Shown one piece after another: positions 13 through 15,163 of a stretch of DNA of 18,485 nucleotides. Under the pieces are notes generated by a model, which saw only the letters and a program-made list of their open reading frames with translations, did no database searches and was not told where the DNA came from. Numbering within the stretch: position 1 is the stretch's first letter; every line of letters starts with the position of its first letter. The DNA comes from an uncultured Lachnospiraceae bacterium (GTDB lineage: Bacteria; Bacillota; Clostridia; Lachnospirales; Lachnospiraceae): positions 1 to 18,485 of the forward strand of contig CADCQU010000018.1 of NCBI GenBank assembly GCA_902803635.1, in the 5' to 3' direction. The translations under genes were made by a program, and so were the position numbers.

Positions 13-3000
13 TTAGGTTAAGAAGTAGGCGTAGGCTGCCTTGCAATAGTCGTAGATGGCGATGACAACGTTCTTCAAGGCATCGTTGTCCCCTTCAAGA
101 GCGTTCTTGATGTAGTCCTGCGTGCTGACGGTCGCGCCATAGGTCGTGCTGCCATTCGTGAAGGTCAGGGAAAATTCATCCAGAATGCAGCTTGCCGCGA
201 TGGAAGGAATCTCATAGAAAATGTAGGAGCCGGTCGGCTTTTTCTTCCATTGCAGCGGCGTACCGTTCAGGGTGACGGCTGTGTTCTCGAACGTCTCCGG
301 ATCGATAACCTCGAAATACAGCCGGTAGCTCGTCTTCGTCTTCAGCAAAAGCGTCGAACCCTTGTACGCAAGGCCGAAATCACCGAAGTTGTCCGGGAGC
401 AAGTTCTTCTTCAGTCCGGTCGGCGCGGTCAAGGTATAGGCAAGGTCTTCATCGGCCGGAAACCACGTCCTGTAGCCAAACACCCGCTGCGCCTTCGCGC
501 CATAAATCAACATGGCCCTGGCCAGATTCCAGAGCGTCTCGCTGTAGGTCGTGTGCTCTGCATCGGCCAGAATCGTCCTCGCGTAGGTCTGCACGGAATA
601 TTGATTCTTTTTGACCACGGCATCATTAATCTTCAGGGTCGCCGTCACGACATCGGTCATTTCCTTCGCCGCAACATGCACCGGCACTTTATAACAGCCT
701 GCGCACGGCTCGCCCTGCGGAATCTGCTCCGCCTCGCTGAGGCTAACGCTTTCCGTCTTTTCCACCGTCGTACCATCCGCCAGATCGACCGTCCAATGGA
801 AGTCCACATCGGCCGCCGCGGGGTCGGCAGTGCCGAGGTCGACGATGAAATTGATGCCGATATCGTCCTTCAGTGTCAGCGAGTGACCGATGAAGTACAT
901 TTGCCCGCTCGGAATGTCCGGAACGGTGTATGTATAGTCGATCACGGCGGTCGTAGCATCCATATTGTCAACCGTCGCAGCGCCGCTCTGACCGTTGACG
1001 GTCAACGCAAAGCATTTGTCCTGAGCAATCGTGCCGTCGGGATTTTGCGCACTGTTGTGGCCCTTGAACCAGACGGTGCAGGAGTCGTAATCGCCGGTGG
1101 AGAACATCGCGCGAAGCTGATAGGTCTGGCCCGGTTCGAAGTTCATTCCGGGATCTTCCCCGTTCGCATCGAGCCATTGGGCCCAGACTACAGCGTAGTC
1201 CGTGCCGGCCGGCACGGCCAGCCCAAAATCGGCGGCATTTGCAAAATCTGTCGGGATCGGATCTCCCGCCTGCGCGTCGACCGTCAGCTCGACCGCTTCG
1301 ACGAGCTTTGCCGCCTGCGTCCATTTACAGTAGAGCGTCACATCCCCCTCAACGAAATCCCACGTAGCAACACCGGTGGTCTCGTCATTCGGGTCGAGGA
1401 ACCAGCGCACCGTGCCCTTCTCCGGGTCGTACACCTCGTACTGCGTGTAATTGTCGTCGTCACATAAAGCCTCGGCGTAGGCGGCACCGTTAAACCAGTC
1501 CTTGTCGGGCCGGCCGCTTGCGCTGGAACCGCTCCAGACGCTCTGCATCGGTGCCGGAGCCGCGCCGATCCCGCCGGTGTCGAACGAAATCGTATAGTGG
1601 CTGTATGTGAATGTGTAGGTCCGGTCCTCGGTGACCGCCTCCCTCGTCGGGGTGACATCCCAATGACCAACACCGTAGCCGTACTCCGGCTGCATATCGT
1701 CGGGAATGTAGGACGGCGATTCGCCATCGAGCACGTATTCGATTACCGTGTCGGAATTCTCATGCGACCAAAGGCCGTTGACGATTTTGTAGGTCACGGT
1801 GCGGAGTACCAACGGACGGGTTTCGGTGTGGCCGGAATCATGGAGGCAGACACGGGTCTCCAATCCCGGCTCCTCGGGCGTGGGCTGCGTCGTGACCGTC
1901 CACGGCCCCCATTCGTGCTCACTGTTCGAGAAACGAATCGATCCGTTGTGCTTCAAAAGCGCAATATCATCGCTTTCTCCGACACGGATGATCACCGAAA
2001 GTGAGCCCTCCGTCATTGGCAGGTTCTTATTCACCGTGCAGGAGAAGGCACCGGTTTCGTCGGTCGTGAAATAGTTCCCAAAGTAGCCCGCTCCGCCATA
2101 ATTCATCTGTATATCTACGGAACCGGAGACACCTGCGGCAGCCTCACCCCACTGATCCGTCAGAACGCCGCTGACCGTGTAGGACTGGCCCGGATGCGCG
2201 ACCGCAGGCGCAAGGTTCTGTACGGTCAAATGGCGTTTTTCCTTGACAATCACGGTGCAGGTTGCCTGGCAGGGCGCAAATTCTTCGCTGCCGGGATAGG
2301 AAATCAGCAGCTCATGTGTACCGATACCCAGATCCGACGCCCGAATCTTCACCCTGTAGCCCACCATGGACTCCATCTCACCGACCGGCGTGCCGTTGAC
2401 CGTGACCGCAGGCGCAGGAGCATAGACCTCCTGATACTCGTCATCCGTACCGACGTAAAAAGATACGTAGAAATCGTCGCTCACATCGACAGTGTCCGGA
2501 CAGTAAAATACGCGAATCTCCGTCAGAGCGGCGAGGCGCAGAATGTGGACGGAATAGTCCTGCCGGTGAGCCTTGTCCTCCGCGACCGCGGTGACGGTGA
2601 AGTCGTTCCAGCCGACATTGAGTGCCTTTTGTCCGCCGCCCTCGACCGTCGCGGTAGCGTGGTAGGTATCCGCCTGAATCTCGACGCTCTCGGTAGCATA
2701 AGGTACGGTGGCGTAGTAGTCAATGATATTCGAGGCAAATGCAGGCTGGAGCGTTACGCCGGGGATCGTGATATTTCCCAACCGCGCATAGCTCGAAATC
2801 TCGGCAAATGTATAGGTAAAGGTCTGGTCCTGCGCAATGGAGACGGCGGCCGGGTCCGTGTCCCAGCGGCCATATGTGCTAAATCCCTCCGCCTGGGTCA
2901 TCCCGGTGGGAATTTCCGCCGGCGTCTGTCCTTCGGGAACATACTCCGTCCTGGGCGTGTTTGTGCCGTCGGCCCAGAAGCCGTTCTCGATCACATAGGT

Positions 3001-4113
3001 CACGGTATGACACGGCGTAAAGGAATAAATGAAGGTCCGGTCTCCGCTGATGATCCAGCTACCCGGCAGAGAGTTCCAGCTACCCGGTTCGGCATACCCC
3101 GCGGAGGGCTGTCCAGGGGAAGGGACATTGCCCGGCTTTTTCTGGTTGCTGACGTACTCGGTTTTGGTTCCTGTCGTGCCGTCCGACCAGGTTCCCCCAA
3201 TCATTTCATAGGTAACAACCCACTTCGGCAGGAAGCTCGCGCTTACCGTCACGGGCCCGGCCGGCATCGTGAAGGTATATACGCCATTTCCCTGCGACCG
3301 CAGCGCAACGCTGCCGGAAGATGTGGCTGCGGTCACGCCCGAAAAATCGTAGGCCTCGTTCGGTGTCGCGGTGATCGTGACGGTATCGCCCGCGTAATAG
3401 CTGCCCGTGCCTGAAACGGAGCCGCCATTTCCGGGACTGCAATCTGCGTGCACGCTGTACTGCGGGGCGTCCTTCCAGAAGAAAGTCATAAAAACGCTGG
3501 TGTTGCCGTCGTCCGGGGAAGTCAACGAGTAGATGGTCTGTCCGGGGACGCCGGGGATGTTGTACCAATGGCTGTACCTATTGTCCACGATTTTTTCCAC
3601 CCGTATATGGTCAAGCGCCTGCCTGTAGGGTTCCGTGACGTACAGGTTCACCTTCGTGTTCGGCGAGGTGTGGACCTTGTCCATTCGGAGATACTCTCTA
3701 TCGTCCGCGTAGACCCAGAATTCCTGCGTCGTGGTTTTCCTGTCCGCGAAGGTAATGTAGACCGTAATGTTTTTGGCCGGCATCGGGAACGTGACCACGG
3801 AATCCTGGTAGGAAAAAGCCGTGTCAGCATCCGATAAAAGGTACGTGATGTTGCCAGCGCTGTCCCGGTAGTAGCAGCTCTGCGTGACATAACCGCTTTG
3901 ACCGGGTCTGGATATCATGATCGAGACAGGCTCGCCGGCCGCAGCCCGGTTTTTGTCAATCTCGTAGAGGCGGCCAAAGTTGAGGGGGGTTCCCGCAGTG
4001 ATTGTGTAGGTTGGTTCCTCCGCCTCGACATCGCTTTGCGTTACCGCTGGCAACAGAACAGCAAACAGCAGGCAGACAAGGGGCATCAGAAGAAATCTGG
4101 TTATTTTTTTCAT
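13..4113 (-). CDS. Large secreted multidomain surface protein (InlB-like repeats, cadherin-like domain, shared C-terminal domain)
   Basis: This is a 1366-aa exported protein. An upstream ATG at 4125 is possible, but AGAAAGGA lies just before the ATG at 4113, which also begins the signal peptide (MKKITRFLLMPLVCLLFAVL, followed by a small-residue region). Counting from the 4125 ATG, the modules are: a divergent InlB-type repeat (about 225-300, ending YTFTMPAGPVTVSASF); three copies of a roughly 70-aa repeat of the type VTYxIxNGxW...EYV..G..P..IP (about 303-370, 373-442 and 790-860); a cadherin-like beta-sandwich (about 446-532, with PAFASNIIDYYATVPY); Ig-like stretches; a WGPWTV...ETRVCLHDSGHTETR module typical of ruminococcal surface proteins; and a C-terminal domain of about 270 aa starting at GHSLTLKDDIGINF. 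There is no LPXTG motif. The C-terminal domain recurs in the protein at 6525-10667. The role is unknown; adhesion or glycan contact is an inference. Confidence 0.85.
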   Translation of the reverse strand: MKKITRFLLMPLVCLLFAVLLPAVTQSDVEAEEPTYTITAGTPLNFGRLYEIDKNRAAAGEPVSIMISRPGQSGYVTQSCYYRDSAGNITYLLSDADTAFSYQDSVVTFPMPAKNITVYITFADRKTTTQEFWVYADDREYLRMDKVHTSPNTKVNLYVTEPYRQALDHIRVEKIVDNRYSHWYNIPGVPGQTIYSLTSPDDGNTSVFMTFFWKDAPQYSVHADCSPGNGGSVSGTGSYYAGDTVTITATPNEAYDFSGVTAATSSGSVALRSQGNGVYTFTMPAGPVTVSASFLPKWVVTYEMIGGTWSDGTTGTKTEYVSNQKKPGNVPSPGQPSAGYAEPGSWNSLPGSWIISGDRTFIYSFTPCHTVTYVIENGFWADGTNTPRTEYVPEGQTPAEIPTGMTQAEGFSTYGRWDTDPAAVSIAQDQTFTYTFAEISSYARLGNITIPGVTLQPAFASNIIDYYATVPYATESVEIQADTYHATATVEGGGQKALNVGWNDFTVTAVAEDKAHRQDYSVHILRLAALTEIRVFYCPDTVDVSDDFYVSFYVGTDDEYQEVYAPAPAVTVNGTPVGEMESMVGYRVKIRASDLGIGTHELLISYPGSEEFAPCQATCTVIVKEKRHLTVQNLAPAVAHPGQSYTVSGVLTDQWGEAAAGVSGSVDIQMNYGGAGYFGNYFTTDETGAFSCTVNKNLPMTEGSLSVIIRVGESDDIALLKHNGSIRFSNSEHEWGPWTVTTQPTPEEPGLETRVCLHDSGHTETRPLVLRTVTYKIVNGLWSHENSDTVIEYVLDGESPSYIPDDMQPEYGYGVGHWDVTPTREAVTEDRTYTFTYSHYTISFDTGGIGAAPAPMQSVWSGSSASGRPDKDWFNGAAYAEALCDDDNYTQYEVYDPEKGTVRWFLDPNDETTGVATWDFVEGDVTLYCKWTQAAKLVEAVELTVDAQAGDPIPTDFANAADFGLAVPAGTDYAVVWAQWLDANGEDPGMNFEPGQTYQLRAMFSTGDYDSCTVWFKGHNSAQNPDGTIAQDKCFALTVNGQSGAATVDNMDATTAVIDYTYTVPDIPSGQMYFIGHSLTLKDDIGINFIVDLGTADPAAADVDFHWTVDLADGTTVEKTESVSLSEAEQIPQGEPCAGCYKVPVHVAAKEMTDVVTATLKINDAVVKKNQYSVQTYARTILADAEHTTYSETLWNLARAMLIYGAKAQRVFGYRTWFPADEDLAYTLTAPTGLKKNLLPDNFGDFGLAYKGSTLLLKTKTSYRLYFEVIDPETFENTAVTLNGTPLQWKKKPTGSYIFYEIPSIAASCILDEFSLTFTNGSTTYGATVSTQDYIKNALEGDNDALKNVVIAIYDYCKAAYAYFLT

Positions 4114-4306
4114 GGCATCGTCCATCCTTTCTGATAAAATTCAAGAAATGATTACTATATAATCCCCATCGCCGGAGGCGATTAAATTCATGGGATTTCG
4201 ACATGCGCGTACACGAAATAATACCCCGTGGTGGCGCGCGCCAGCGCATGGAGATTTAATCTGTAACCGGAAACACAGTTGCAGCTCACAGTGGAAGTCC
4301 ATCGAG

Positions 4307-5770
4307 TCACCTCTTCAGCTTCACAATCTCCGGATTTGACTGGTATGTCGCGACTTTCTCTCCTTTTCGTTCGAGAAGCAGCCCCATTTCGACCAGCCGG
4401 CCAAGCACATTCTTCCGGAAATAGGTGGACGGCTGCAGGGAAAGGCTGTCCGCGATTTCCCTCGCCGTGCGCGGCTTCGCGTAACAAAAAGACAGAATTT
4501 GCAGGTCATTCTTCCCATCCAGCACGACTTCGGTATAAATGTCCGGAAGCGCATCGCTCTCCTCCAAAACGCCGCCGCGGAACGTAAGGTCGGGAAGCGT
4601 CAACGTGAAGGAAGAGGCATTTGCCGAGATATAAGGCTGGAACGCCTCCCCGTACCCTGCGTAATCCGCCGCAATCTTATCGAAGCCGGAACCCTTTTCT
4701 TCCATATAATGGCAGAGCTCCAAAACGGCACAGATGACATCGTTTCGCCGCCTCGGGATAATCTGGGAAATGTTCTTCTCCTTCCGCAGCTCCCGGACGC
4801 CGAGAAGCGAGCCCGGGGACGTAATCTCCAGCCGGTCGCGGAAAACATTTACCTCAATCTGTGAACCTTGAATATAATAATTTCGGTGTCCGACTGCATT
4901 CACAATACCTTCGGTCACAGACCGCGCCGGAAAGGACACATAGTCACTCCGCCCGGTCGCCTGTTTTTCAAAGCCATTGTTGGAATGGTTCCTGACAAAT
5001 GCAATGCACGCGGCGATTACGTCCAGAAGGTTCCCAACAAATGTCTCGGAAGCGGTCACATACGAGCTTCCCTTCGTGATTCCCGGCCAGGCCGTGGCAA
5101 CGGCCTTCGTCCGCAGGTCGCTGCAGGCATCCGCAAAGAGCAATGCTCCCTTCGAAAGACAGCCTTCGCCGGACAAAAAGCCAATGGACATAAGCTGCTT
5201 CTCCGTGACATTTTCCCCCTGCTCCTTCGCATGCGCAAACAGCTTTTGGAAGTCCTCCTGCCGAAAATGGGCATCGACAAATGGCCTGTCATACGGGGTG
5301 TTGTCGCTCATGAGTACCATTTCCCGAATCTGCTCCGGGGTCGCCTGGACGGTCTCCCCAAAGCTGCGGACATAAATACCCAGAAGACCGCCCTCATGAA
5401 CCATCACCGGAACGTTCCTGCTCGGACGGACAACGATGTTGAGTACATACCTTGTGGGCGTATACTCCGTGCAGGGAATCGGCTGGATATCGTAATCAAC
5501 AGCCGGTTCAAAATGTTCCCTCGCCTTTCGGTGCACCAGGAGAACCGTCTTGTCCGCCGTCGTATGGTCCATGGCCAGCACCGTATGTGTCCGATTGTCC
5601 ACGCCAATGTAAAGGTTCCCTCCCTCCGTGTTTGCAAATGCAGCCATCGTCTTCAGCCAGCCCATTTCCTTCGACTTCCCCGAAGCGGCGTTCCCTTCCT
5701 CAATCATACCCTTAAATTCCACATTCCTGCTTTCCAGATTCACGCCAGGAACCAGCTCTTCAAAAAGCAT
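4307..5770 (-). CDS. AlbA_2/Schlafen-type ATP-binding transcriptional regulator (COG2865-like)
   Basis: This is a 487-aa cytoplasmic protein. An in-frame ATG lies at 5791, but AAGGAGGTG lies just downstream of it and ends a few bases before the ATG at 5770, so the start is placed there. The N-terminus (about 1-130) is an AlbA_2 nucleic-acid-binding domain: ESRNVEFKG, WLKTMAAFANTEGGNLYIGV, then VLNIVVRPSRNVPV. The middle (about 270-370) resembles HATPase_c_4: TEGIVNAVGHRNYY and FRDRLEITSPGSL. The last 65 residues form a winged helix-turn-helix (TAREIADSLSL...LGRLVEMGLLLERKG). Proteins with this order are usually annotated as predicted transcriptional regulators. The gene is monocistronic by its surroundings. 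Its promoter carries an array of ACTTCACT sites, which fits autoregulation, but no target is shown. Length is normal for the family and no lesion is visible. Confidence 0.85.
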   Translation of the reverse strand: MLFEELVPGVNLESRNVEFKGMIEEGNAASGKSKEMGWLKTMAAFANTEGGNLYIGVDNRTHTVLAMDHTTADKTVLLVHRKAREHFEPAVDYDIQPIPCTEYTPTRYVLNIVVRPSRNVPVMVHEGGLLGIYVRSFGETVQATPEQIREMVLMSDNTPYDRPFVDAHFRQEDFQKLFAHAKEQGENVTEKQLMSIGFLSGEGCLSKGALLFADACSDLRTKAVATAWPGITKGSSYVTASETFVGNLLDVIAACIAFVRNHSNNGFEKQATGRSDYVSFPARSVTEGIVNAVGHRNYYIQGSQIEVNVFRDRLEITSPGSLLGVRELRKEKNISQIIPRRRNDVICAVLELCHYMEEKGSGFDKIAADYAGYGEAFQPYISANASSFTLTLPDLTFRGGVLEESDALPDIYTEVVLDGKNDLQILSFCYAKPRTAREIADSLSLQPSTYFRKNVLGRLVEMGLLLERKGEKVATYQSNPEIVKLKR

Positions 5771-5808
5771 CCCCATCACCTCCTTTTTCATTTTCGGTTC
5801 TATCTTGG

Positions 5809-5823: not shown

Positions 5824-5894
5824 AGTGAAGTAGAGAAGAAAAACTTCACTCTACTTCACTATAAACTTCACTGTACTTCATTATAAACTTTACT
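5824..5894. repeat. Phased ACTTCACT operator-like array upstream of the AlbA_2 gene
   Basis: The plus strand has ACTTCACT at 5843 and 5853, again at 5865, then ACTTCATT at 5875 and ACTTTACT at 5887. Spacings are 10, 12, 10 and 12 bp, forming a 22-bp unit whose leading AAACTT recurs at 5841, 5863 and 5885. An inverted AGTGAAGTAGAG at 5824-5835 pairs with CTCTACTTCACT at 5849-5860. Sites one helical turn apart and next to the promoter suggest cooperative protein binding. The binding protein is not known; the adjacent gene product is the obvious candidate. Confidence 0.7.
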
Positions 5895-5896
5895 CA

Positions 5897-5925
5897 GGAG
5901 ACAGAGAACCGTCCCCCCCGTCTCC
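5897..5925. repeat. GGAGACAG hairpin repeat, copy 1
   Basis: GGAGACAG...ACCGTCCCC...GTCTCC is an imperfect hairpin. It belongs to a family present five times in this window (also 10681, 12211, 13548, 15170). It ends exactly where the fibronectin-III-like fragment at 5926 is cut off. Confidence 0.75.
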
Positions 5926-6119
5926 CTATTCGCCTTTTTGTACGAGCGCGCCCGAAGGAAGTAGGTCGTACCCTCCCGCAGCCCGGTCACCGACTTTAAG
6001 GTGTTCATCCTGCCCTTCAGCGCGAATGTCCTCGTCCTTGCCATGTTCTCCTTAAGGCTCACCTGAAGCTGGTAGCCGGAAGCGCCATTTGCCTGAACTG
6101 TAACACATTTTCCGTTCAG
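5926..6119 (-). pseudogene. Fibronectin-III-like domain fragment (C-terminal remnant of a surface protein)
   Basis: Read on the minus strand, the open frame contains VTVQANGASGYQLQVSLKE, then TFALKGRMNTLKSVTGL, then REGTTYFLRARSYKKANR. That is the second half of an Fn3-like repeat of the kind common in Lachnospiraceae secreted proteins (GYQIQxS...V.GL..G..YYVRVRAY). No start codon with a ribosome site precedes it, and the coding sense dissolves into the GGAGACAG repeat at 5925 and into low-complexity C-runs near 6121. It appears to be a leftover of a gene destroyed by repeat insertion or deletion. Confidence 0.6.
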
Positions 6120-6161
6120 GTGCCCCCCCCTCGAAAAAAGCTCTATTGCTTCGTAAAGGGC

Positions 6162-6248
6162 CTGTCATCCTGAGCGAAGCGAAGGATCCCGTTAGGTTTT
6201 TCCAAAATTTGACGGGATTCTTCGTCGCTTCGCTCCTCAGAATGACAG
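6162..6248. repeat. 87-bp palindromic repeat element (CTGTCAT...ATGACAG), copy 1
   Basis: The ends CTGTCATCCTGAGCGAAGCG and GCTTCGCTCCTCAGAATGACAG are long imperfect inverted repeats around a short centre. A second member of the same family lies at 17749-17833. The motif CCTGAGCGAAGCGAAGGATC is a widespread intergenic palindrome in bacterial genomes. No coding capacity; it would fold as a long hairpin in RNA. Confidence 0.7.
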
Positions 6249-6438
6249 AAAATCGGGGATCAGCTGAACAGTAACCATTTTCCCGCCGTGCACCCCGTAA
6301 AGACAATGAAATAAGGATGACAGACGGCATCTGAAATGCTACAATAAAGATACGTAAGAAAACTGTGAAAAAGGTGGCCAGCATCAGATTTGCGGAAGCT
6401 GGGAACCAGAGGAGAAGACAGAATCCTTACGTAACCCC

Positions 6439-6468
6439 TTGAATATGCACGAATTAAAGGCATATTCT
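6439..6468 (+). promoter_or_regulatory. Putative promoter of the 6525 secreted protein gene
   Basis: TTGAAT, an 18-bp spacer and TATTCT lie about 57 bp before the ATG. The spacer and -10 overlap an inverted repeat, GAATATGC and GCATATTC (about 6441-6467). The preceding stretch 6249-6438 shows no gene or RNA I can recognise. Confidence 0.4.
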
Positions 6469-6524
6469 ATGGGATAAGTCCGTCCCACGAGGGGAATTTT
6501 TATATTTCAAAAAGGAGGAAAACT

Positions 6525-9500
6525 ATGAACAAACACAGTACGCGACCGGTCTTGCGCATTTTGGCGGTGATACTCAGCCTTGCGCTTCTGCTAACCTTCA
6601 CGCCGCTGTCGGGGATGGTATCGTTCACGGCGAGCGCGGCAACTGCTAAGCACCCGTATTACAGGGTCACCGTATACTGGAATGTCAAAAATGCCAACAG
6701 TGATGCAGGCAACTGGTTTTCGTTTATCTATCAATATCCTGATGCATATGACAGCGATTCAAATACTATGATGTCTAAGGTAATCTCAAACGAGACGTTC
6801 CACAAAGCTGCAGAACAAGAAGGCGAACAACACGCCATCTTTGAACTGCCGGGCATACCCTACAAACTGACATATAATATATACGGTAGAACAAAAGATG
6901 TATCCGAGTGGTACATCACAAAGGTGACCGTAGAAGCCATAAATCCTGTTCCTAATTGTGGAATAGGAATAATTACACTTTGGGAAGGCAAATTAGGAGA
7001 GAATGTGGCTCGTCTCGGAGGTGGTTCCAACCAAAACACAATATCATTCAACACTAATGGTCCCACTTTTAGTGGTTGGACATACAGTGAGGTCGGCTCT
7101 AACGCAAGTGCCGTGACAAACAGCTATTTTTCGGATGTACACGCAAAAGGCATTTATGTTAAAGGAGCTACGCCTATATCCTGCGACAGTACCTTTTATG
7201 TTCCGACAAACCTTGGTGGCGTCAGCTATTACTCCGTAACCAAGGGCGTAGTGTACGACCAGTACGGTGGAAGATACCCCGACCAAAGAATGAAGACATA
7301 CGTAAAAAAACAGGAAACCGGTATTACTTATGACGGGTCAAATGTTGATCTGTATAATTCAGCCAACAGGGCAAACGACTATACCTATACCTTTGGCTAC
7401 GATTTTAACGCAGGGATACGTTCCGAAAAAACCGTTACTGTTAAAACCTTCGACTATAATGTTACATTCAAAGACAAGGACGGCAATGTCCTGAAAACCG
7501 AAACCGTAGACTACGGCAAGAGCGCCACTCCGCCGGATTCGGTTCCTTTGCATATAAACGACGGCAAAACCAAATATGATTTCTCCGGATGGAATTACGG
7601 CGCCGACTACTATACCAATATCACGGATGGATCTCAATACAGATCTCTTTACTCGTGTTATTTTGAAAGCAATGCTTTTTCCGGCAGCGGCACCCAGTCC
7701 GATCCCTATCTCATCCGAAACGCCGATGACTGGGAATCCCTGCGCCAGCGCTGCCTGAATTACGACACAACGGATGAATACTTCCGTATGGAGAACGATA
7801 TCACGGTCAGCGACCCGGTAGGTGCTTACGGTCACCCCTTTAAGGGAATCTTTGACGGCAACAGCAAGACCCTCCGCTTTGACCACACCGCAACAGGCGA
7901 AAACGCCGCTCCGTTCAACTATATTGACGGCTGTACGATCAAAAATCTCCGCACGGTTGGCACGATCAATACCGCATACAAATACGCCGCCGGTCTTGTT
8001 GCGGATCTGTCCGGCACTGTCACGATTGAAAACTGCCGCAGCAGCGTTGCGATCAACAGCACCGTAAGCGGCGACGGCACGCACGCCGGCTTTATCGCAA
8101 AAGCCAATAAGGGCTCTCTCCTCACCATGAGGGGCTGTTTGTTTGACGGAAGCTTCTCCGGTCAGAGCACAAATTCCTGCGGCGGCTTTATCGGCTGGCG
8201 CAGCGGCGGAGCCGATATTTATGACAGCGTTTTCGCTCCGTCAAATATAGACATTGACCTTACCGATTGCTCCACCTTTGCGCGTAACAAGGTGGATACC
8301 CATAACAGCTACTATTTGCAGACAATGGGTACGGATAATCTTGCCATGTGGAAAAAGGGTTATACCGTTACCGCAGGCGCTGACGTGACGATCAACAAGG
8401 GCGAAGGCACGCCGTACAAGGTAAGCGGCATCACCGCCTACGGCACGGGTCTTGACTACAACAAAAAATTTTATGCAGGCACGGGCGATACGCTCAGCCT
8501 TTCTCACTCCGATAAAACAGGCTATATCTTCAAAAATTATTCGGTAAATTCCGGCTCCGTCAGCGGAAACACCCTTACCGTAGGCTCCGCCGACACCACC
8601 GTGAACGCGGTGTATAACGCCCTGTATACCGTCACATGGAAAAACGGCAATACGGTTTTGAGAAGCGAATCGGTTGAGTCCGGCAAGGTTCCGACTTATA
8701 CGGGCGCAACGCCTACAAAGGCAAGCGATAACAAATACAGCTATACCTTCAAGGAGTGGTCTCCTGCGGTATCGGCAGTGACAGGCAATGTGACCTATAC
8801 GGCTGTGTTTACAAAAACTCCCCTTGCGACACATTTTTCACAGAGTGGCAGTACCTATATCATCAACGATGAAACAGGCTGGGACATCTTCTGTGACATG
8901 CTGGCTGAGAACACCAAGGGCTTCTTCACCGGTAAGACCGTCAAGCTGGGCAAAAGCATCACTGTCAGCCGTATGGCAGGCAGCGATTATCACGACTTTA
9001 CCGGCACCTTTGACGGACAGAGTTACACGCTGACCTTCAACTACACAGCCGACTCTGAAAGTGCCGCCCCCTTCCGCAACACGGAGAGCGGTTGTGTCAT
9101 CAAAAATCTTCATGTAAACGGCACCATCAACACTGCATACAAATATGCCGCCGGTCTTATCGCACAGCAGTACGGCACGGCAACAATCGAAAACTGCCGC
9201 AGCAGTGTTATGATCAACAGCTCCGTAAACGGCGACGGCACCCACGGCGGCTTTGTTGCCGTAGCAGGCGGTGCCACGATGAAAGGCTGTGTTTTCGACG
9301 GCGTTATCTGCTCGCTAAGCAGCGCTGCCCGCACAAGCTCCTGCGGCGGTTTTGTCGGTTGGGGTTCGGTCAATATCAGTGATTCGGTTTATAATCCTGC
9401 TGCGGTTCCCGACGGCAAATTTGCCCTCGCCAGCACCGACTGTTATACATTCAGCCGCCGTTCGGGAGATGTTACAAACTGCTACTACACATCAGACCTC

Positions 9501-10667
9501 GGCACAGCGCAGGGCAAACAGGCTTACACCATCACCGCAGGCGATGATGTGACGCTCGCCCTTTCCGGCAAGGCGACCGTATACAAGGTAAGCCAAATCA
9601 CCGCATACGCAGACAACAGCGGTCTCAAGTACGGAGATACCTTCTACGCAGGTAGCGGAGATACGGTAGAGCTCACGCTTGGCTACACGGGCACCCCGGC
9701 GGAAGGCTACATCCAGAACGGTTTTGCCGCAAGTGCAGGCACGCTTGACGGCACTGTACTGACAATGCCCAAAGATAATGTGACCGTTTCGGCAAAAATT
9801 GACTTTACAGACGGCATAGGTGCTTCCCTTGTCGGACATTCCATCAGCCTGGACGGCGATATCGGCGTGAACTTCTATATGGAGCTTGCGGATGATATTG
9901 TAAGCAGCGACACCGCCTATATGCAGTTTACCATTCCCAACGGCAGCAAGACCGAAACAAAAAAGGTCTTCATCAAGGACGCACGGGTAGAAGGCAACTA
10001 TCACGTCTTCAAGTGCAGCGTCTCCGCAAAGGATATGAATTCTATCATTAAAGCTCAGATTTCTGACGGCAACGGCGGTTCGGGTACAGAGTACACCTAC
10101 TCCGTAAAAGACTATGCAGATTATCTGCTGGCGCATACTGGAAATCATGCAGAATATGCGGCTGCAGCTCCGCTTGTCAGGGCGATGCTCCATTACGGCG
10201 CAGCCGCACAGGAGTTTTTCGGCAGCACCTATTCACCTGCAAACGAAGGCATAGACAGCAACGGTTGGGAGAACGTGACCGCGCAGACGATCAACAAACC
10301 CTATGACAATACAACCGGGAACCTGCCGGAAGGCACGACCATTGTGGGAGCGACACTCTCGCTGAAGTCGCAGACCACGCTATCGCTTTATTTCAAGAGC
10401 GATACAACGCTCGAATTTTCCTGCGAAGGTATGACCGTCAAAACAGAAGCAAAGGGCGATTATCAAATTGCGCGTATCCGCAACATCCCCGCAAAAATGC
10501 TCAGCGATGACTTTACCGTCAGCCTTGGCAACGGATATCACGTAACCTACAGCCCGCTGACCTACTGCTATAACGTACTCAGCGACTGCGATCAGCCCGA
10601 TTCGCTCAAGCACGTCGCTCAAACATTGTACCTGTACTCGCAGGCGGCTGACGAATATTTTGGTTGA
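6525..10667 (+). CDS. Large secreted protein with duplicated GLUG-like beta-helix modules and shared C-terminal domain
   Basis: This is a 1380-aa exported protein. AAGGAGG at 6512-6518 fixes the ATG at 6525. The signal peptide (hydrophobic core LAVILSLALLLTF, likely cut after TASA) covers about 1-39. Order of modules: a unique N-terminal region to about 305; an InlB B-type repeat (about 310-375, VTFKDKDGNVLKTETVDYG); a GLUG/parallel beta-helix-like block (about 385-605); a YTVTAG-type module (about 612-700); a second InlB-type repeat (about 700-763, VTWKNGNTVLRSESVESGK); then a second helix block (about 766-990) and a second YTITAGDDV module (about 998-1090). Residues from about 1100 to the end match the C-terminal domain of the 13-4113 product. 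No LPXTG or membrane anchor is visible. Function is unknown; cell-surface binding is an inference. Confidence 0.85.
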   Translation: MNKHSTRPVLRILAVILSLALLLTFTPLSGMVSFTASAATAKHPYYRVTVYWNVKNANSDAGNWFSFIYQYPDAYDSDSNTMMSKVISNETFHKAAEQEGEQHAIFELPGIPYKLTYNIYGRTKDVSEWYITKVTVEAINPVPNCGIGIITLWEGKLGENVARLGGGSNQNTISFNTNGPTFSGWTYSEVGSNASAVTNSYFSDVHAKGIYVKGATPISCDSTFYVPTNLGGVSYYSVTKGVVYDQYGGRYPDQRMKTYVKKQETGITYDGSNVDLYNSANRANDYTYTFGYDFNAGIRSEKTVTVKTFDYNVTFKDKDGNVLKTETVDYGKSATPPDSVPLHINDGKTKYDFSGWNYGADYYTNITDGSQYRSLYSCYFESNAFSGSGTQSDPYLIRNADDWESLRQRCLNYDTTDEYFRMENDITVSDPVGAYGHPFKGIFDGNSKTLRFDHTATGENAAPFNYIDGCTIKNLRTVGTINTAYKYAAGLVADLSGTVTIENCRSSVAINSTVSGDGTHAGFIAKANKGSLLTMRGCLFDGSFSGQSTNSCGGFIGWRSGGADIYDSVFAPSNIDIDLTDCSTFARNKVDTHNSYYLQTMGTDNLAMWKKGYTVTAGADVTINKGEGTPYKVSGITAYGTGLDYNKKFYAGTGDTLSLSHSDKTGYIFKNYSVNSGSVSGNTLTVGSADTTVNAVYNALYTVTWKNGNTVLRSESVESGKVPTYTGATPTKASDNKYSYTFKEWSPAVSAVTGNVTYTAVFTKTPLATHFSQSGSTYIINDETGWDIFCDMLAENTKGFFTGKTVKLGKSITVSRMAGSDYHDFTGTFDGQSYTLTFNYTADSESAAPFRNTESGCVIKNLHVNGTINTAYKYAAGLIAQQYGTATIENCRSSVMINSSVNGDGTHGGFVAVAGGATMKGCVFDGVICSLSSAARTSSCGGFVGWGSVNISDSVYNPAAVPDGKFALASTDCYTFSRRSGDVTNCYYTSDLGTAQGKQAYTITAGDDVTLALSGKATVYKVSQITAYADNSGLKYGDTFYAGSGDTVELTLGYTGTPAEGYIQNGFAASAGTLDGTVLTMPKDNVTVSAKIDFTDGIGASLVGHSISLDGDIGVNFYMELADDIVSSDTAYMQFTIPNGSKTETKKVFIKDARVEGNYHVFKCSVSAKDMNSIIKAQISDGNGGSGTEYTYSVKDYADYLLAHTGNHAEYAAAAPLVRAMLHYGAAAQEFFGSTYSPANEGIDSNGWENVTAQTINKPYDNTTGNLPEGTTIVGATLSLKSQTTLSLYFKSDTTLEFSCEGMTVKTEAKGDYQIARIRNIPAKMLSDDFTVSLGNGYHVTYSPLTYCYNVLSDCDQPDSLKHVAQTLYLYSQAADEYFG

Positions 10668-10680
10668 GGCGCACGAAAAA

Positions 10681-10708
10681 GGAGACAGGGGGACGTTCCT
10701 CTGTCTCC
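10681..10708. repeat. GGAGACAG hairpin repeat, copy 2
   Basis: GGAGACAG and CTGTCTCC form a perfect 8-bp stem around GGGGACGTTCCT. It lies 13 bp after the stop codon at 10667, between two convergent genes, so it may serve as a transcript end for the upstream gene, although no T-run follows it. Confidence 0.75.
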
Positions 10709-10716
10709 TCCTATTA

Positions 10717-10754
10717 ACTTCACTCCACTTCACTGCAAACTTCACCACTTCACT
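10717..10754. repeat. Orphan ACTTCACT array
   Basis: ACTTCACT occurs at 10717 and 10727, ACTTCACC at 10739 and ACTTCACT at 10747. Spacings are 10, 12 and 8 bp, and the intervening bases (CTCCACTTCACTGCAAACTT) match the AlbA_2 upstream array at 5843-5880. Here no AlbA_2 gene is attached; the array abuts the stop codon of the ATPase gene at 10760. It again sits beside a GGAGACAG hairpin, as at 5824-5925. Confidence 0.7.
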
Positions 10755-10759
10755 GTAAA

Positions 10760-12103
10760 TTACAAAAGACCTTCCCCATCATCCTTGCGGATATAGTATT
10801 CCAGATTCCAGCCAAGATACAAAGGAATACTGTAAGTCACGGTGCTTTCGCATAGATTCTTCGCGATGTTCTTCCGGGAAAGCTTTAAGCCAGTTCTCGG
10901 CAAATATTTTTTGCAGAATTGCCGGAAGCTCTTCGCCTGCGTGTTGTCGGCGGCCTTCACCTCGACCGGGACGATCTCGCCATTTTCTTCAAAAACAAAA
11001 TCCACCTCCGCCGCATTTCCGGAACGCCAAAAGTACGGTTCCTTGCCAAGCGAAAGCAGCTCATTTGCCACGTAGTTCTCGGCAAATGCGCCTTTGTACT
11101 TCACGTACAGGGCCGACTCCTTCCAGATTGTTTCCGCGGACACCCCGGACCTTGTCCTGAGGAGGCCAATATCCGACAAATATACCTTAAAATAAGTCTT
11201 GTCAGCAAAGCCGGAGAGGGGGATTTCCGGCTTTTCAACCAGCTCCGTTCTCACGATCAGGCCTGCATTTGCCAGCCACTGCAGGGCATCCTCCAGCTCC
11301 GCCGCCCTCTTTCCCTGTTTTACATGGGAAAAGACGAATTTGTTATTCTCCTTGGCAAGCTGCACGGGGATGGAATCCCAGATCCACCGGATTTTTGGCA
11401 CCTCGCTAAGCGGTGCATGTTTTGCAAAATCGTCCGCGTAATCCTGCAGGATTTCCTTCTGGACCTCCTCGACTTCGTCCACATCGTGTGTTTCAATCCA
11501 AGTCTTGACAGCCTCCGGCATCCCGCCGACAATATAGTACTCCTTCAACAGCCTGTCCATTGGAACCGAATAAAGCTCCGGAATCGGCCGGTCAGTTGGC
11601 CATTCCCGGAACACCTCCAGCAAGTCGGCCCTGCCATTTGCAGCTACAAACTCCTTGAAGCTCATCGGATACAGACGAAGCCGGTTCACCTTTCCGACAG
11701 GAAAGGAAAGCTGCTCCTTTTTCAGAACGACGCCCAACAGAGAACCGGCACAGATCAAATGCAGCTCCCTCATGTCTTCGCAAAAATATTTTAACGCGGT
11801 AATCGCACGGGGACACTCCCCGATTTCGTCCAGAAAAACCAGCGTCTTCCCTGGAACAATCTCCGTTTTAAAATGCCTTCCGAGCTCCGTTAAAATTCTA
11901 TGCACGTCAAAATCATAGTCAAATATCGCCGCAAGCGTTTCCGTGGCCTCAAAATTCACATACACGTAGCTCTCGAAGTACTCTTTTGCAAATTTTTCCA
12001 CAATATACGTCTTCCCGCACTGCCGAACGCCGGTCAATAAAAGCGGCTTCCTCCGAGCCTTCCCCTTCCACGCCAGCAATTCCTTCATAATATCCCTATC
12101 CAT
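10760..12103 (-). CDS. AAA-family ATPase with C-terminal DUF4143 (PD-(D/E)XK-like) domain, ATPase 1
   Basis: This is a 447-aa protein. The open frame extends to 12316, but CTGGAGGTGGGG immediately precedes the ATG at 12103, which begins the family-typical MDRDIMKELLAWKGKARRKP. Walker A is GVRQCGKT (25-32), Walker B is LVFLDEIGE (about 88-96), and LICAGSLLGV is the sensor-like strand. The C-terminal DUF4143 region includes ENYVANELLS and EVDFVF...PVEVKA, with D368, E381 and K383 spaced as in the PD-(D/E)XK nuclease fold. Such ATPases are numerous in gut Firmicutes, and their biological role is not established. No frameshift is seen. The gene converges on the secreted protein gene and has a dedicated operator-like array upstream (12116-12195). 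Confidence 0.88.
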   Translation of the reverse strand: MDRDIMKELLAWKGKARRKPLLLTGVRQCGKTYIVEKFAKEYFESYVYVNFEATETLAAIFDYDFDVHRILTELGRHFKTEIVPGKTLVFLDEIGECPRAITALKYFCEDMRELHLICAGSLLGVVLKKEQLSFPVGKVNRLRLYPMSFKEFVAANGRADLLEVFREWPTDRPIPELYSVPMDRLLKEYYIVGGMPEAVKTWIETHDVDEVEEVQKEILQDYADDFAKHAPLSEVPKIRWIWDSIPVQLAKENNKFVFSHVKQGKRAAELEDALQWLANAGLIVRTELVEKPEIPLSGFADKTYFKVYLSDIGLLRTRSGVSAETIWKESALYVKYKGAFAENYVANELLSLGKEPYFWRSGNAAEVDFVFEENGEIVPVEVKAADNTQAKSFRQFCKKYLPRTGLKLSRKNIAKNLCESTVTYSIPLYLGWNLEYYIRKDDGEGLL

Positions 12104-12115
12104 CCCCACCTCCAG

Positions 12116-12195
12116 AAGTCCTATGACATTTGTAAACATTGTAACAAAAGTCCTATGACTTTTGCAAGAGTTGCCGCAAAAGTCATAGGACTTTT
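12116..12195. promoter_or_regulatory. Triple palindrome operator-like array, 32-bp period, upstream of ATPase 1
   Basis: Three copies occur: AAGTC-CTAT-GACAT (core 12121-12124), AAAAGTC-CTAT-GACTTTT (12146-12163, core 12153-12156) and AAAAGTC-ATAG-GACTTTT (12178-12195, core 12185-12188). Core centres are 12122.5, 12154.5 and 12186.5, exactly 32 bp apart. The distal copy carries the complementary core, so it is inverted relative to the other two. The distal two together also form a 20-bp inverted repeat that could act as a terminator for the operon arriving from 12243; the third copy at the same period argues for protein binding sites. Confidence 0.7.
12138..12167 (-). promoter_or_regulatory. 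Putative promoter of ATPase 1
   Basis: Minus strand: TTGCAA (12167-12162), an 18-bp spacer and TACAAT (12143-12138) with an upstream TG. The middle palindrome of the array occupies the spacer exactly, and the proximal palindrome lies between the -10 and the ribosome site, the usual arrangement for repression. Confidence 0.5.
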
Positions 12196-12210
12196 TGTCA
12201 AAAATTATAA

Positions 12211-12238
12211 GAAGACAGTGGAACCGTCCCCTGTCTCC
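12211..12238. repeat. GGAGACAG hairpin repeat, copy 3
   Basis: On the minus strand GGAGACAG...GGACGGTTCC...CTGTCTTC folds as a hairpin and is followed by TTATAATTTTT. It lies directly after the stop codon of the hydrolase gene at 12243 and could terminate that operon. Confidence 0.7.
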
Positions 12239-12242
12239 TGCT

Positions 12243-13175
12243 TTACCAGATTTGTACCGACTTCTTTCCCGAGGCATATTTATATACTTTGATATTCTTC
12301 TCTTTGAGATACGCAATCAGAGCCGGGGCATCGTATTTCCCCGTTTTATCCTCCGTAATGCTCTTGGGGGCATCGACAAATGCCGCCTTAGGCTGTACGT
12401 AATCGTAAAACCGTTTCGTCAGACCCCAATTTCCGTGATGTCCGCACTGTACAAATGTCGATTTGAGTTCTTTTCTGTATTTTTTCACAATCCGTTTTCC
12501 GCGTGACTTCGAGACATCTCCGCAGAACAGGAAGCTTCTCTTCTGTCCTTTTAATTTGAACATCAGGGAACCATAATTGCACTGGTTCTTTTTGTATTGA
12601 TCGATGGACTTGTCCCAGCCGTTCAGAACCTTCAGCTCCAGGCCAAGCACCTTTCGTCCATCGCCCTCCTGAAGATATTTTAATTTCTTCGTCTTCTTTG
12701 CCAGAGCGTTAAACTGCTCATAGATACTGTATTCGTCCCAAGGCTTCTGTGTAGCTTTATACTGTTTTGCCCTTGTTTTTGGGCTGTAAATTACGCCGAT
12801 GCTGATATTTGTATAATTGTTCCCCAGAATCTCCGTCAGAGCTCCCACATGATCCGGATGTGGATGCGTAATGATCCAGACGGCCACCTTGTTCCCCAGA
12901 CTCCTGATCACAGAGCGCACCGTATCCGCCTCGTAACGCCAGCCACCGTCGATTACCATAAGCTTTCCCGAACTGTTGACCACCGTATAAAACATCGATT
13001 GCCTTGGTGCATCCTCCCGGCCATACTGCGTCACGGTCCATATTTCTTTTTTCGACGCATTCTTTCCGTAGACAGGTGTCCGCAGCAACGCCACCGCCAG
13101 GATTATCATGGCAGCGAAAAATCCCACGTGCAGCAGCCTTCGAAATCTTTTGCAAGCTATTCCCTTCTTTTGCAT
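12243..13175 (-). CDS. Membrane-anchored or secreted metallo-beta-lactamase-fold hydrolase (ComEC C-terminal-like)
   Basis: This is a 310-aa protein. The frame is open to 13232, but GGAGG eight bases before the ATG at 13175 sets the start. Residues about 14-36 are a single hydrophobic segment (VGFFAAMIILAVALL), either a signal peptide or an anchor, so the catalytic part is probably outside the cytoplasm. The metal-binding motif HPHPDH (104-109) follows the strand VWIIT, and VIDGG (about 74-78) and FLFCGD are further family strands; QCGHHGN carries a late histidine ligand. The arrangement resembles soluble homologues of the ComEC/Rec2 C-terminal domain, whose members include nucleases and phosphodiesterases. 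The substrate is unknown. It is the second gene of an operon with the small gene 53 bp upstream. Confidence 0.85.
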   Translation of the reverse strand: MQKKGIACKRFRRLLHVGFFAAMIILAVALLRTPVYGKNASKKEIWTVTQYGREDAPRQSMFYTVVNSSGKLMVIDGGWRYEADTVRSVIRSLGNKVAVWIITHPHPDHVGALTEILGNNYTNISIGVIYSPKTRAKQYKATQKPWDEYSIYEQFNALAKKTKKLKYLQEGDGRKVLGLELKVLNGWDKSIDQYKKNQCNYGSLMFKLKGQKRSFLFCGDVSKSRGKRIVKKYRKELKSTFVQCGHHGNWGLTKRFYDYVQPKAAFVDAPKSITEDKTGKYDAPALIAYLKEKNIKVYKYASGKKSVQIW

Positions 13176-13228
13176 GCTTTTATCCTCCAAAGTAATCCAA
13201 AATCCGACCGGAGCCGCCGTGAGGGCGG

Positions 13229-13495
13229 TCAATCGTCGGACATAAGACGACGGTTCTTTTCGCGAAGCTCCCGGTAGAGGCGCATCTCCGGAGAGTTCAA
13301 ATCCTCCTCCCTCTCCTTCTCCATCTGCCGGATCCTTTCGGCCACCTCTCGGCGGCGGCTTTCGATGAGGGCGGCCTCCTGCCGCTTTCTCGCCATCTCG
13401 GCAAGCTCCCTCTCACGATCCTTCTTCTTTGCAATTCGCGCCTCATGCTGGAAAAACAGCAGGAAGAGCATCAAAGCGATGATAAATCCAAGCAT
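13229..13495 (-). CDS. Small membrane-anchored coiled-coil protein
   Basis: This 88-aa protein has a strong AAGGAGGTG just before the ATG at 13495. Residues 2-16 (LGFIIALMLFLLFFQ) form one membrane segment. The rest, from about 20 to 85, is highly charged (RIAKKKDRERELAEMARKRQ, then REVAERIRQMEKEREED) and should be a long alpha-helix or coiled coil. I do not recognise a family. It is likely co-transcribed with the MBL-fold hydrolase gene, whose product also carries an N-terminal membrane segment, so the two may act together at the membrane; that is inference. Confidence 0.75.
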   Translation of the reverse strand: MLGFIIALMLFLLFFQHEARIAKKKDRERELAEMARKRQEAALIESRRREVAERIRQMEKEREEDLNSPEMRLYRELREKNRRLMSDD

Positions 13496-13547
13496 ATCAC
13501 ACCTCCTTTTTCATGGTTGTGGCAGAGCAACTTTGGGAGCATTTTAA

Positions 13548-13572
13548 GGAGACAGGGGACGGTTCTGTCTCC
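13548..13572. repeat. GGAGACAG hairpin repeat, copy 4
   Basis: GGAGACAGGGGACGGTTCTG followed by TCTCC folds as a short hairpin. It sits in the leader of the 13495 operon, between the putative promoter at 13660-13688 and the first gene. Confidence 0.75.
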
Positions 13573-13605
13573 CTTTTATTTCTCAGACTTCATGTGTGCT
13601 CTCAC

Positions 13606-13709
13606 TTATCGATTTTCCATACCTTCTCGATACTTCAAATGTATGCACACTCTCTTCCTATAATATACCATGTTCTCCCCCTATTCAACAACAGACAAAA
13701 AGAAAAAAT
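13606..13709. repeat. Direct repeat flanking ATPase 2, left copy
   Basis: About 100 bp (TTATCGATTTTCCATACC... through ...AAAAAGAAAAAAT) recurs at 15223-15321 with only about four substitutions and one 4-bp indel. Both copies are preceded by a GGAGACAG hairpin. The two copies bracket ATPase 2, with an offset of 1617 bp. Confidence 0.85.
13660..13688 (-). promoter_or_regulatory. Putative promoter of the coiled-coil/hydrolase operon, inside the direct repeat
   Basis: Minus strand: TTGAAT (13688-13683), 17-bp spacer, TATTAT (13665-13660). It points toward the ATG at 13495. In the right-hand copy of the repeat (15223-15321) the same positions read TTGAAC and TTCTAT, a weaker match pointing against ATPase 2. 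Confidence 0.5.
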
Positions 13710-13751
13710 GTTCTGAATCTGGGCGAACCGCTTTTCATGATACCTCTGGCC

Positions 13752-13812
13752 GGGGTGCCCCTCTCCGTCACTGCTTTGCCGTGACACTTCCCCTGAAGGG
13801 GGAGGCAAGGGG
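13752..13812. repeat. GC-rich double-hairpin intergenic repeat
   Basis: GTCAC-9-GTGAC (13767-13785) and CTTCCCC-TGAA-GGGGGAG (13787-13804) follow GGGGTGCCCC (13752-13761). The composition differs sharply from the AT-rich DNA after 13812. Similar GTCAC/GGGGGAG palindromes are scattered in gut Firmicutes genomes as I know them; no coding capacity is evident. Confidence 0.5.
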
Positions 13813-13844
13813 TTTACATACTTTTTGCAGAATTGCCAGAAAAA

Positions 13845-13924
13845 GTGTTTACAAACATCTTTTGATGCCATAAAATAATGTTTGGAAACATTTTTTCTTC
13901 TATGAAAATAGTGTTTCAAAACAC
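13845..13924. promoter_or_regulatory. Triple palindrome operator-like array, 33-bp period, upstream of ATPase 2
   Basis: GTGTTT-AC-AAACAT (13845-13858), ATGTTT-GG-AAACAT (13878-13891) and GTGTTT-CA-AAACAC (13911-13924) have centres exactly 33 bp apart (13851.5, 13884.5, 13917.5). A degenerate GTTTACATAC at 13812-13821 may be a fourth, out-of-register copy. The last palindrome ends 27 bp before the ATG. The architecture copies that of ATPase 1 with an unrelated site sequence. Confidence 0.75.
13848..13876 (+). promoter_or_regulatory. Putative promoter of ATPase 2
   Basis: TTTACA (13848-13853), 17-bp spacer, TAAAAT (13871-13876). The -35 lies within the first palindrome of the array; the second and third palindromes fall at and after the predicted start point. 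Confidence 0.4.
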
Positions 13925-13951
13925 CATTTGAACATTTTGAGGTGAAAGCAG

Positions 13952-15163
13952 ATGAATTATAACGATTATGAGTGGATTCTTGACCGCTCCCGCCGGAGGG
14001 TCCGGGAAGTCTCGCTCGATAAAAAGAGATTCCTGTTTGACAGTATCGACTGGCGCGACCGTCTGATCTGCGTTCTTGGGGCAAGAGGCACCGGAAAAAC
14101 CACGTTGCTTCTTCAACATATAAAAACGGATTTTTCGGAAAACCCGGACGCTGCCCTGTATGCCTCTTTGGACAATCTCTGGTTCAAGACACATGCTCTG
14201 GAGGATTTGGCCGAAACACATTATAAAAACGGGGGCAGCCATCTTTTTCTTGATGAAATCCATTATCTGAAAGACTGGCAGCTCATCCTGAAAAACATGT
14301 ACGATGATTTTCCCGGCCTCCACATCGTATATTCCGGCTCATCGCTGCTGAAAATCGATACGGAAAGCGGGGATCTCTCCAGGAGGCAGATCATTTACCA
14401 TTTGCCGGGCTTATCCTTCCGGGAATACCTCGATTTTGAAAACGTTCTGCAGACCGAGGCCGTGTCCCTGCAGCATTTGTTGGAAAACCATGTGACGCTG
14501 GCAAATGCATTTGCCGAAAAAACAAAGGTCCTCCATTTCTTCAACCAATACCTTGCAAAGGGCTACTATCCGTTTTACAAGGAAGTCTACGCCGGTTACG
14601 AGCTCCGGATGCAGCAAATGATCAACCAGATTCTGGAAAGTGACTATCCTTCCACGGAATCCATCTCGTATGCCACCGTCCAGAAGATAAAAAAAATGCT
14701 CTACATCCTTGCGCAAAGCTGCCCGCAGACACCGAACATGCAGGAACTGTACCGTGAGCTCGAAACGGACAGAAACCAGGGCCTTCGGATGCTGTACATC
14801 CTCGAAAAAGCAGATTTGCTAAGCCTCCTGTCCTCCAAGGACATTTCCCTAACCAACATGGCCCGTCCCGATAAAGTTTACTGTGACAACACAAACATCA
14901 TGTTTTCCTTAACAGAAAATATCAACACAGGCACCAAACGGGAAACCTTTTTCCTAAACCAGCTGCGGGCCGCCGGCTATGCCGTCCGTTACCCCCGGCA
15001 GGGTGATTTTCTTGTAAACGACAAGTATCTTTTCGAGGTTGGCGGCAGAAGAAAATCCTTCGACCAGATCAAAGACATCGCCGACAGCTATCTGGCGATT
15101 GACGACGTGGAGGTAGGAAGAGGAAACAAAATCCCCCTCTGGCTGTTCGGGTTTTTATATTAA
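13952..15163 (+). CDS. AAA-family ATPase with DUF4143-like C-terminal domain, ATPase 2
   Basis: This is a 403-aa protein; GAGGTG at 13939-13944 supports the ATG at 13952. Walker A is GARGTGKT (43-50), Walker B is HLFLDEIH (97-104), and IVYSGSSLLKI is the sensor-like strand. The C-terminus has DFLVNDKYLFEVGGRRKSFD, a D...FEVGG..K variant of the PD-(D/E)XK-like signature seen in one branch of these proteins, unlike the D...PVEVK form of ATPase 1. The two ATPases share architecture but little sequence, so they are not a recent duplicate pair. The gene stands alone, bracketed by direct repeats (13606-13709 and 15223-15321) and preceded by its own palindrome array. Its role is not established; reading frame intact. 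Confidence 0.87.
   Translation: MNYNDYEWILDRSRRRVREVSLDKKRFLFDSIDWRDRLICVLGARGTGKTTLLLQHIKTDFSENPDAALYASLDNLWFKTHALEDLAETHYKNGGSHLFLDEIHYLKDWQLILKNMYDDFPGLHIVYSGSSLLKIDTESGDLSRRQIIYHLPGLSFREYLDFENVLQTEAVSLQHLLENHVTLANAFAEKTKVLHFFNQYLAKGYYPFYKEVYAGYELRMQQMINQILESDYPSTESISYATVQKIKKMLYILAQSCPQTPNMQELYRELETDRNQGLRMLYILEKADLLSLLSSKDISLTNMARPDKVYCDNTNIMFSLTENINTGTKRETFFLNQLRAAGYAVRYPRQGDFLVNDKYLFEVGGRRKSFDQIKDIADSYLAIDDVEVGRGNKIPLWLFGFLY

Follow-up and report, generated by a model that had tools for sequence, protein, structure and literature searches.

Largely gene-specific repeat arrays with 32/33-bp spacing lie upstream of many DUF4143/PDC-S01 ATPase genes across bacterial phyla

PDC-S01 (AAA_14-DUF4143, COG1373), in which an ATPase is fused to a PD-(D/E)XK domain, is a candidate phage-defence family of PADLOC and, according to the consulted sections of its description, ranks fourth in frequency among the defences of prokaryotes, validation being pending for most PDCs (PMC12988326). 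Autogenous control at a defence locus is exemplified by RptR, which the consulted part of the source presents as a 9-kDa repressor of a defence island; its own promoter contains the three direct repeats to which it binds, which are 9 bp long and include a 6-bp palindrome (PMC12255303). Here, we analyzed an 18,485-nt stretch of DNA (the window), which is contig CADCQU010000018.1 of an uncultured Lachnospiraceae bacterium (assembly GCA_902803635.1) and belongs to an incomplete genome (2.4 Mb, 411 contigs, 88.65% complete). It encodes two AAA_14 ATPases, #1 and #2, and an AlbA_2 protein, each preceded by a repeat array. Both ATPases and the six array-bearing homologues that were scanned (two archaeal; including L284, L313 and L315; L, G and C numbers are our labels for loci, genomes and contigs) match the PDC-S01 models, while an upstream array is unmentioned in the consulted parts of PMC12988326 and PMC13356809.

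Like the RptR repeats, as far as the consulted text on RptR goes, the arrays would represent autogenous control by direct repeats at a defence-locus promoter; they differ in their spacing (32-33 bp), in a motif that varies by gene and in their putative binder, which would be the very ATPase-nuclease that the gene encodes. Plasmid iterons, too, are directly repeated and helically spaced, and they adjoin the gene that encodes the protein binding them. The arrays share this arrangement with respect to the gene of their putative binder, but that gene encodes an ATPase-nuclease, and the arrays are present both on plasmids and on genome contigs. A likeness to MalT-type STAND regulators and to ORC/Cdc6 was seen among the top Foldseek matches, which include ORC1 on DNA and the maltose-regulation entry 8bob at low full-length template-modelling (TM) scores (0.26-0.27 for both); to our knowledge, neither a PD-(D/E)XK-like domain nor a gene-private motif occurs in those proteins. 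No description of arrays at DUF4143/PDC-S01 genes was found in the literature searched, a coverage that includes no bioRxiv preprints and only a minority of subscription papers and within which novelty is judged here, nor in the consulted portions of PMC12988326, PMC13356809, PMC12255303 and PMC4406477.

In the 200 bp upstream of the start, the best self-match occurred at a lag of 32 bp for ATPase #1, 33 bp for ATPase #2 and 22 bp for the AlbA_2 gene, and was reached by 0, 1 and 0 of 300 dinucleotide shuffles, respectively. This bore out the proposal, made from the sequence-only reading of the window, that a periodic array lies directly upstream of each of the three genes. Array #1 (minus strand) consists of three units at 32-bp spacing: one nearest the gene (12113-12134, offset -31 from the start codon), a middle unit with a AAAAGTCATAGGACTTTTG core within the predicted core promoter (12145-12166) and a distal unit (12177-12198). 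The middle and distal units hold a perfect 20-bp inverted repeat (12146-12165/12176-12195). A promoter-like site on the same strand (12138-12167), recognized by consensus match only and with coordinates counted by eye, comprises a -35 element TTGCAA (12162-12167) and a -10 element TACAAT (12138-12143); TTGCAA with TATAAT is present in three homologues (L011, L012 and L014). Array #2 (13840-13931, plus strand) contains three 26-nt units at 33 bp, starting at 13840, 13873 and 13906, with a TGTTTnnAAACA palindrome in each.

The observation held, and its reach exceeds what the window could reveal: arrays at 32/33 bp are a trait of the DUF4143/PDC-S01 family and recur across bacterial phyla. Using ATPase #1 as query in 150 same-family genomes, 102 of which gave a match, 128 usable genes were examined. 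Upstream repeat scores of at least 9 were found in 98 of these genes, compared to 29/126 downstream and 15/128 inside the gene, and 80 genes outscored each of their 25 shuffles. A lag of 32 bp scored best in 29 genes and one of 33 bp in 45, control lags being scattered. In a scan of named genomes, limited to the best 80 of at least 577 matches and assigned by record title to Bacillota, Bacteroidota, Pseudomonadota, Spirochaetota and others, 65 of the 77 usable genes reached this score, in contrast with 16.6% of 1003 control stretches (best lag 32 bp in 27 genes, 33 bp in 31). Under a single criterion for 205 homologues, which accepted steps of 31-35 or 64-67 bp (lag histograms allowing 15-74 bp peaked likewise), an array was detected in 138, vs. 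11/205 shuffles and 7/200 3' flanks. Arrays are thus present at other DUF4143 members, their absence having been set beforehand as the refuting outcome. At least three copies were found in 103 of the 205 genes, compared to 3 shuffles and 2 3' flanks. In these 103 arrays, units were spaced by 31 bp (13 cases), 32 bp (87), 33 bp (134), 34 bp (8), 35 bp (2) or 66 bp (3), and the last copy ended a median of 35 bp upstream of the start codon.

A trained profile (ACA, an A/T tract, TCGTT and AAAAARTGT), derived from the same genes that it scored, reached a score of 12 in 107/205 genes and in 0/205 mononucleotide shuffles; clades outside this profile carry other half-sites. One palindrome common to all arrays was ruled out, as only 16% of the 103 arrays had palindromic units beyond the column-shuffle 95% level. 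Homologues of ATPase #1 from plasmid or phage records (L293-L298) showed strong repeats in all six cases, with a lag of 32, 33 or 66 bp. Among plasmid orthologues of ATPase #2, arrays were carried by those of Segatella (TCCCTCATTGAGGGA units), Parabacteroides (TTTGCTTTTTACCCTTAACAAA, three copies), Persicobacter (TTTTGTGAAATTAATTTTACAA, three copies), Emticicia and three Arcobacteraceae (34 bp). Two of three archaeal plasmid genes, from Methanosphaera and Methanomethylovorans, had three units at 32 bp; no array was found upstream of Thermococcus L314 or Sulfuricurvum L320. By eye, the array-less L291, L318 and L319 and the likewise array-less, unannotated L292 seemingly share one TTTGCnATCTnnAGTTTGCAAAT-like upstream site.

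Scored against its own array in a leave-one-out manner, a unit reached a median of 18.7 (10th percentile 7.4), compared to a median of 4.1 (90th percentile 8.1, maximum 12.8) for the best unit score against the array of a same-genome paralogue. None of 56 ordered paralogue pairs (33 genes, 14 genomes) attained the 25th percentile of the self scores. In the flanks of 112 genes, approximately 250 kb in total, four own-motif matches fell outside the upstream array: one was located 3' of its gene, and three resembled continuations of the array further upstream. When one gene's motif was sought throughout its genome (G039, up to two mismatches), eight matches were obtained, none of them off the contig that carries the gene. 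Five belong to the array and two closely follow the 3' end of the gene; the eighth, with two mismatches, is situated some 2.5 kb further on, in the vicinity of a radical-SAM gene. These results show that the array motif is largely private to its gene and, in the flanks searched, nearly confined to its own upstream region. Same-genome DUF4143 paralogues mostly have different motifs, but the notion of three private codes overstates the situation in the window, where arrays #1 and #2 have the 8-mers of TGTTTACAAA in common and the AlbA_2 unit is found again at 10717-10754. The two 3' copies in G039 (L311, G039:C109:3135-3186) are 33 bp apart and lie behind a terminator-like hairpin. Upstream of the other two DUF4143 genes of the window's genome (L002 and L003, on C20 and C240), there seem by eye to be spaced repeats as well (AATCG in one case; AAATGTT in the other, with distances of roughly 68 and 32 bp).

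Motif similarity rose with protein identity. In a forward-strand test of the 103 genes with at least three copies, which replaced a test of 82 genes with free shift and strand, rho was 0.387 (0/1000 permutations, null maximum 0.15). Between phyla (79 Bacillota-type vs. 22 other-phylum genes), rho was 0.359 (0/1000 permutations), and a 3'-flank control of the same geometry gave -0.06 (100 genes); intergenic DNA inherited from a common ancestor is unlikely to be the cause between phyla. The predicted correlation between array motif and protein sequence was therefore recovered, and a fixed-register test on 101 genes also related identity to code (rho 0.26). Because same-genome paralogues differ while similar proteins share motifs across phyla, the motif follows the protein and not the host. 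Covariation with one particular variable region, which had also been anticipated, did not emerge in any alignment column or domain.

ATPase #1 (10760-12103, minus strand, 447 amino acids) contains an AAA_14 domain, a winged helix and a DUF4143 PD-(D/E)XK-like domain. AAA_14 and DUF4143 both lay above the Pfam cut-off, the PADLOC models for PDC-S01 were matched with an E value of 6.1e-169, and the middle domain reads as a winged helix in the AlphaFold model (predicted local distance difference test, pLDDT, 90.5). Its likely start at 12103 is indicated by a Shine-Dalgarno sequence, noted by eye, and by the alignment start in 27 homologues; the longest open reading frame extends to 12316, crossing array #1. 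ATPase #2 (13952-15163, plus strand, 403 amino acids) is a divergent PDC-S01 member (E value 1.7e-25, PADLOC) with orthologues on plasmids, for which AAA_14 alone exceeded the Pfam cut-off and PF13635 (DUF4143) was not reached; in its plasmid orthologue L284, DUF4143 was just over the cut-off (30.3 vs. 28.1 bits). In an alignment of 28 sequences (numbering of ATPase #1), G25, G30, K31, D92, E93, E342, E366 and K383 were invariant and E381 nearly so; in 55 sequences, D368, E381 and K383 were invariant and E342 nearly so. Both alignments left out ATPase #2. We assigned the conserved residues to putative Walker A/B and PD-(D/E)XK motifs. None of the NCBIfam models named either ATPase or the AlbA_2 protein, and PDB sequence searches returned only weak matches (best E values 0.19 and 0.25), none accepted as a relative; a solved PDC-S01 relative was not among them, a negative that excludes nothing.

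As predicted from sequence, the arrays overlap or adjoin promoter-like sites, the predicted transcription start site falling inside the array in 30 of 100 genes and downstream of the last unit in 66. Owing to this overlap, self-repression fits better than a cutting target; the marking or cutting at the array that had been suggested from the window was not supported. Self-recognition by the gene's own product is the best-supported reading and autorepression is likely: the ATPase probably binds its own array via the winged helix and represses its own promoter. Over this promoter and just upstream of it, many PDC-S01 genes carry two to six copies of their own site of approximately 16-24 bp, three helical turns (32-33 bp) apart. 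According to the model, the gene product, in which an ORC/STAND-like ATPase is joined to a winged helix and a PD-(D/E)XK-like domain, would bind these sites side by side on one DNA face. Binding would keep a potentially harmful nuclease at low levels, and the private code would insulate paralogues in the same cell from each other. More tentatively, a trigger such as infection might release the array, and the protein would then accumulate and act.

Several results weigh against such autorepression. The overlap of arrays and promoters was just moderately above chance; the two 3' copies in G039 sit where no promoter is evident; and asymmetric units, which are the majority, would be unusual for a simple dimeric repressor. 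Paralogue scores overlapped the low tail of the self scores (best 12.8 vs. self 10th percentile 7.4). The first, noisier covariation measure gave a rho of only 0.09 in its 82 genes, even the best column in the fixed-register residue test stayed below the 95% level from 30 permutations (0.193 vs. 0.198), and rho was similar for the ATPase (0.388), winged-helix (0.395) and nuclease (0.347) domains. Further, 67 of the 205 genes had no array by the single criterion. Plasmid orthologues of ATPase #2 scored at least 9 at 32-34 bp in 7 of 15 usable cases, the eight without such a score being L281, L285, L291, L292 and L316-L319, and no array was found at the nifJ-adjacent Bacteroidota members L291, L318 and L319.

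The same data bear on other explanations. The array might be a self-licensing platform on which the ATPase oligomerizes in a filament- or ORC-like manner, with the nuclease held inactive or loaded, promoter control being secondary and the code telling own from other elements. Strict three-turn phasing suits cooperative side-by-side assembly, and the ORC/STAND-type ATPase fold, the invariance of Walker and most nuclease-motif residues and the extra motif copies 3' of the gene in G039 are in line with it; given the rarity of own-motif matches beyond the upstream array (four in 250 kb), we consider this account unlikely. Binding of the arrays by a separate host regulator is improbable, since paralogues in the same genome have different motifs and similar proteins in different phyla share theirs.

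An action at the RNA level, with the repeats forming hairpins or anti-terminators in the 5' leader, would agree with the perfect 20-bp inverted repeat of array #1, which has a 10-nt loop, and with the 30 genes in which transcription is predicted to start within the array. This is very improbable, however, considering that the predicted start lies downstream of the last unit in more than twice as many genes, that most units are not palindromic and that a spacing by helical turns would serve no obvious purpose in RNA. Barely credible is the view that the arrays are dispersed intergenic repeats or chance occurrences unrelated to the genes: recurring GGAGACAG..GTCTCC intergenic elements close to the window arrays, and AlbA_2-type arrays away from an AlbA_2 gene, speak for it; the shuffle tests, the flat control lags and the few motif matches elsewhere speak against it. 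For the DUF4143 arrays it is already disfavoured, and the solitary AlbA_2-type arrays alone remain for it.

One design common to all three genes had been proposed from the window. This was not upheld, as the ATPase arrays are spaced by 32/33 bp and the AlbA_2 array by about one helical turn per unit rather than three. The AlbA_2 gene (4307-5773, minus strand) encodes a protein with AlbA_2 (SLFN) and HATPase_c_4 domains, both above the Pfam cut-off, and likely starts at about 5773, behind AAGGAGGTG, as judged by eye and from homologue alignment; partial matches to other PADLOC models were all that it gave (best E value 1.2e-8). Its array (5841-5895, minus strand) is composed of 8-nt ACTTCACT units alternating at 10/12 bp, which yields the 22-bp period, in the form of two 22-nt repeats, 91% alike, and part of another. 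An inverted copy of the unit (5824-5835, plus strand) pairs perfectly with 5849-5860 (12/12). A second ACTTCACT array (10717-10754, plus strand), some 5 kb away from the AlbA_2 gene, is flanked by the 6525-10667 gene on one side and by the 3' end of ATPase #1 on the other.

The five closest AlbA_2 relatives (34-37% identity) all have TTGAAGT arrays at 11-12 bp, compared to GTGAAGT in the window, and a whole-genome pattern search placed such arrays at the AlbA_2 gene and only there in five relatives. Upstream regions that beat all 60 shuffles were found for 10 of 29 AlbA_2 genes, namely six of the close clade, the window included, and 4 of the 23 others, one of which (L093) is a purine-rich run; a one-turn array is therefore no general AlbA_2 trait, being mostly absent from distant relatives. 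A search of 398 genomes at an E value of 1e-60 recovered the window's own gene only, close relatives being rare at that cut-off. The AlbA_2 gene may possess a self-operator that is analogous to, but distinct from, that of the ATPases and is spaced by one turn. Another of the four genes outside the close clade (L083) has a one-turn array with an AATGAT unit, hinting at private codes in this family too. Elsewhere in the window's genome, a TTGAAGT array (L312, G000:C185:13524-13576) precedes a DUF3810 gene by about 180 bp; no AlbA_2 gene is present in the stretch read, and the contig ends at 13661, 85 bp beyond the array.

With regard to the rest of the window, GGAGACAG..GTCTCC-type elements recur by eye between genes (5895-5927, 10680-10709, 12212-12239 and 13549-13578), one of them also detected as an inverted repeat. 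Their status as dispersed repeats is unproven, as a genome-wide GGAGACAG pattern search gave 8 matches vs. 12 for the control. Two very large genes are also present: one at 13-4125 with InlB-type repeat and cadherin-like domains, and one at 6525-10667 that matched no Pfam family. In another genome, a 33-amino-acid open frame (L195, G135:C35:2612-2686) with 68% identity to the C-terminus of ATPase #2, possibly a gene remnant, directly precedes another DUF4143 gene.

A broader conjecture, which we hold to be doubtful, is that PDC-S01 members are prokaryote-wide self-addressed ATPase-nucleases, in which the gene-specific array would set expression and license the oligomeric state, so that paralogues could coexist without cross-talk and the array would be the identity tag of one element. 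For a family that is very common yet uncharacterized, the array found beside about two thirds of the PDC-S01 copies sampled (138/205) supplies a ready-made ligand, reporter design and specificity code for testing, as well as natural protein-site pairs that could reveal a code of DNA recognition.
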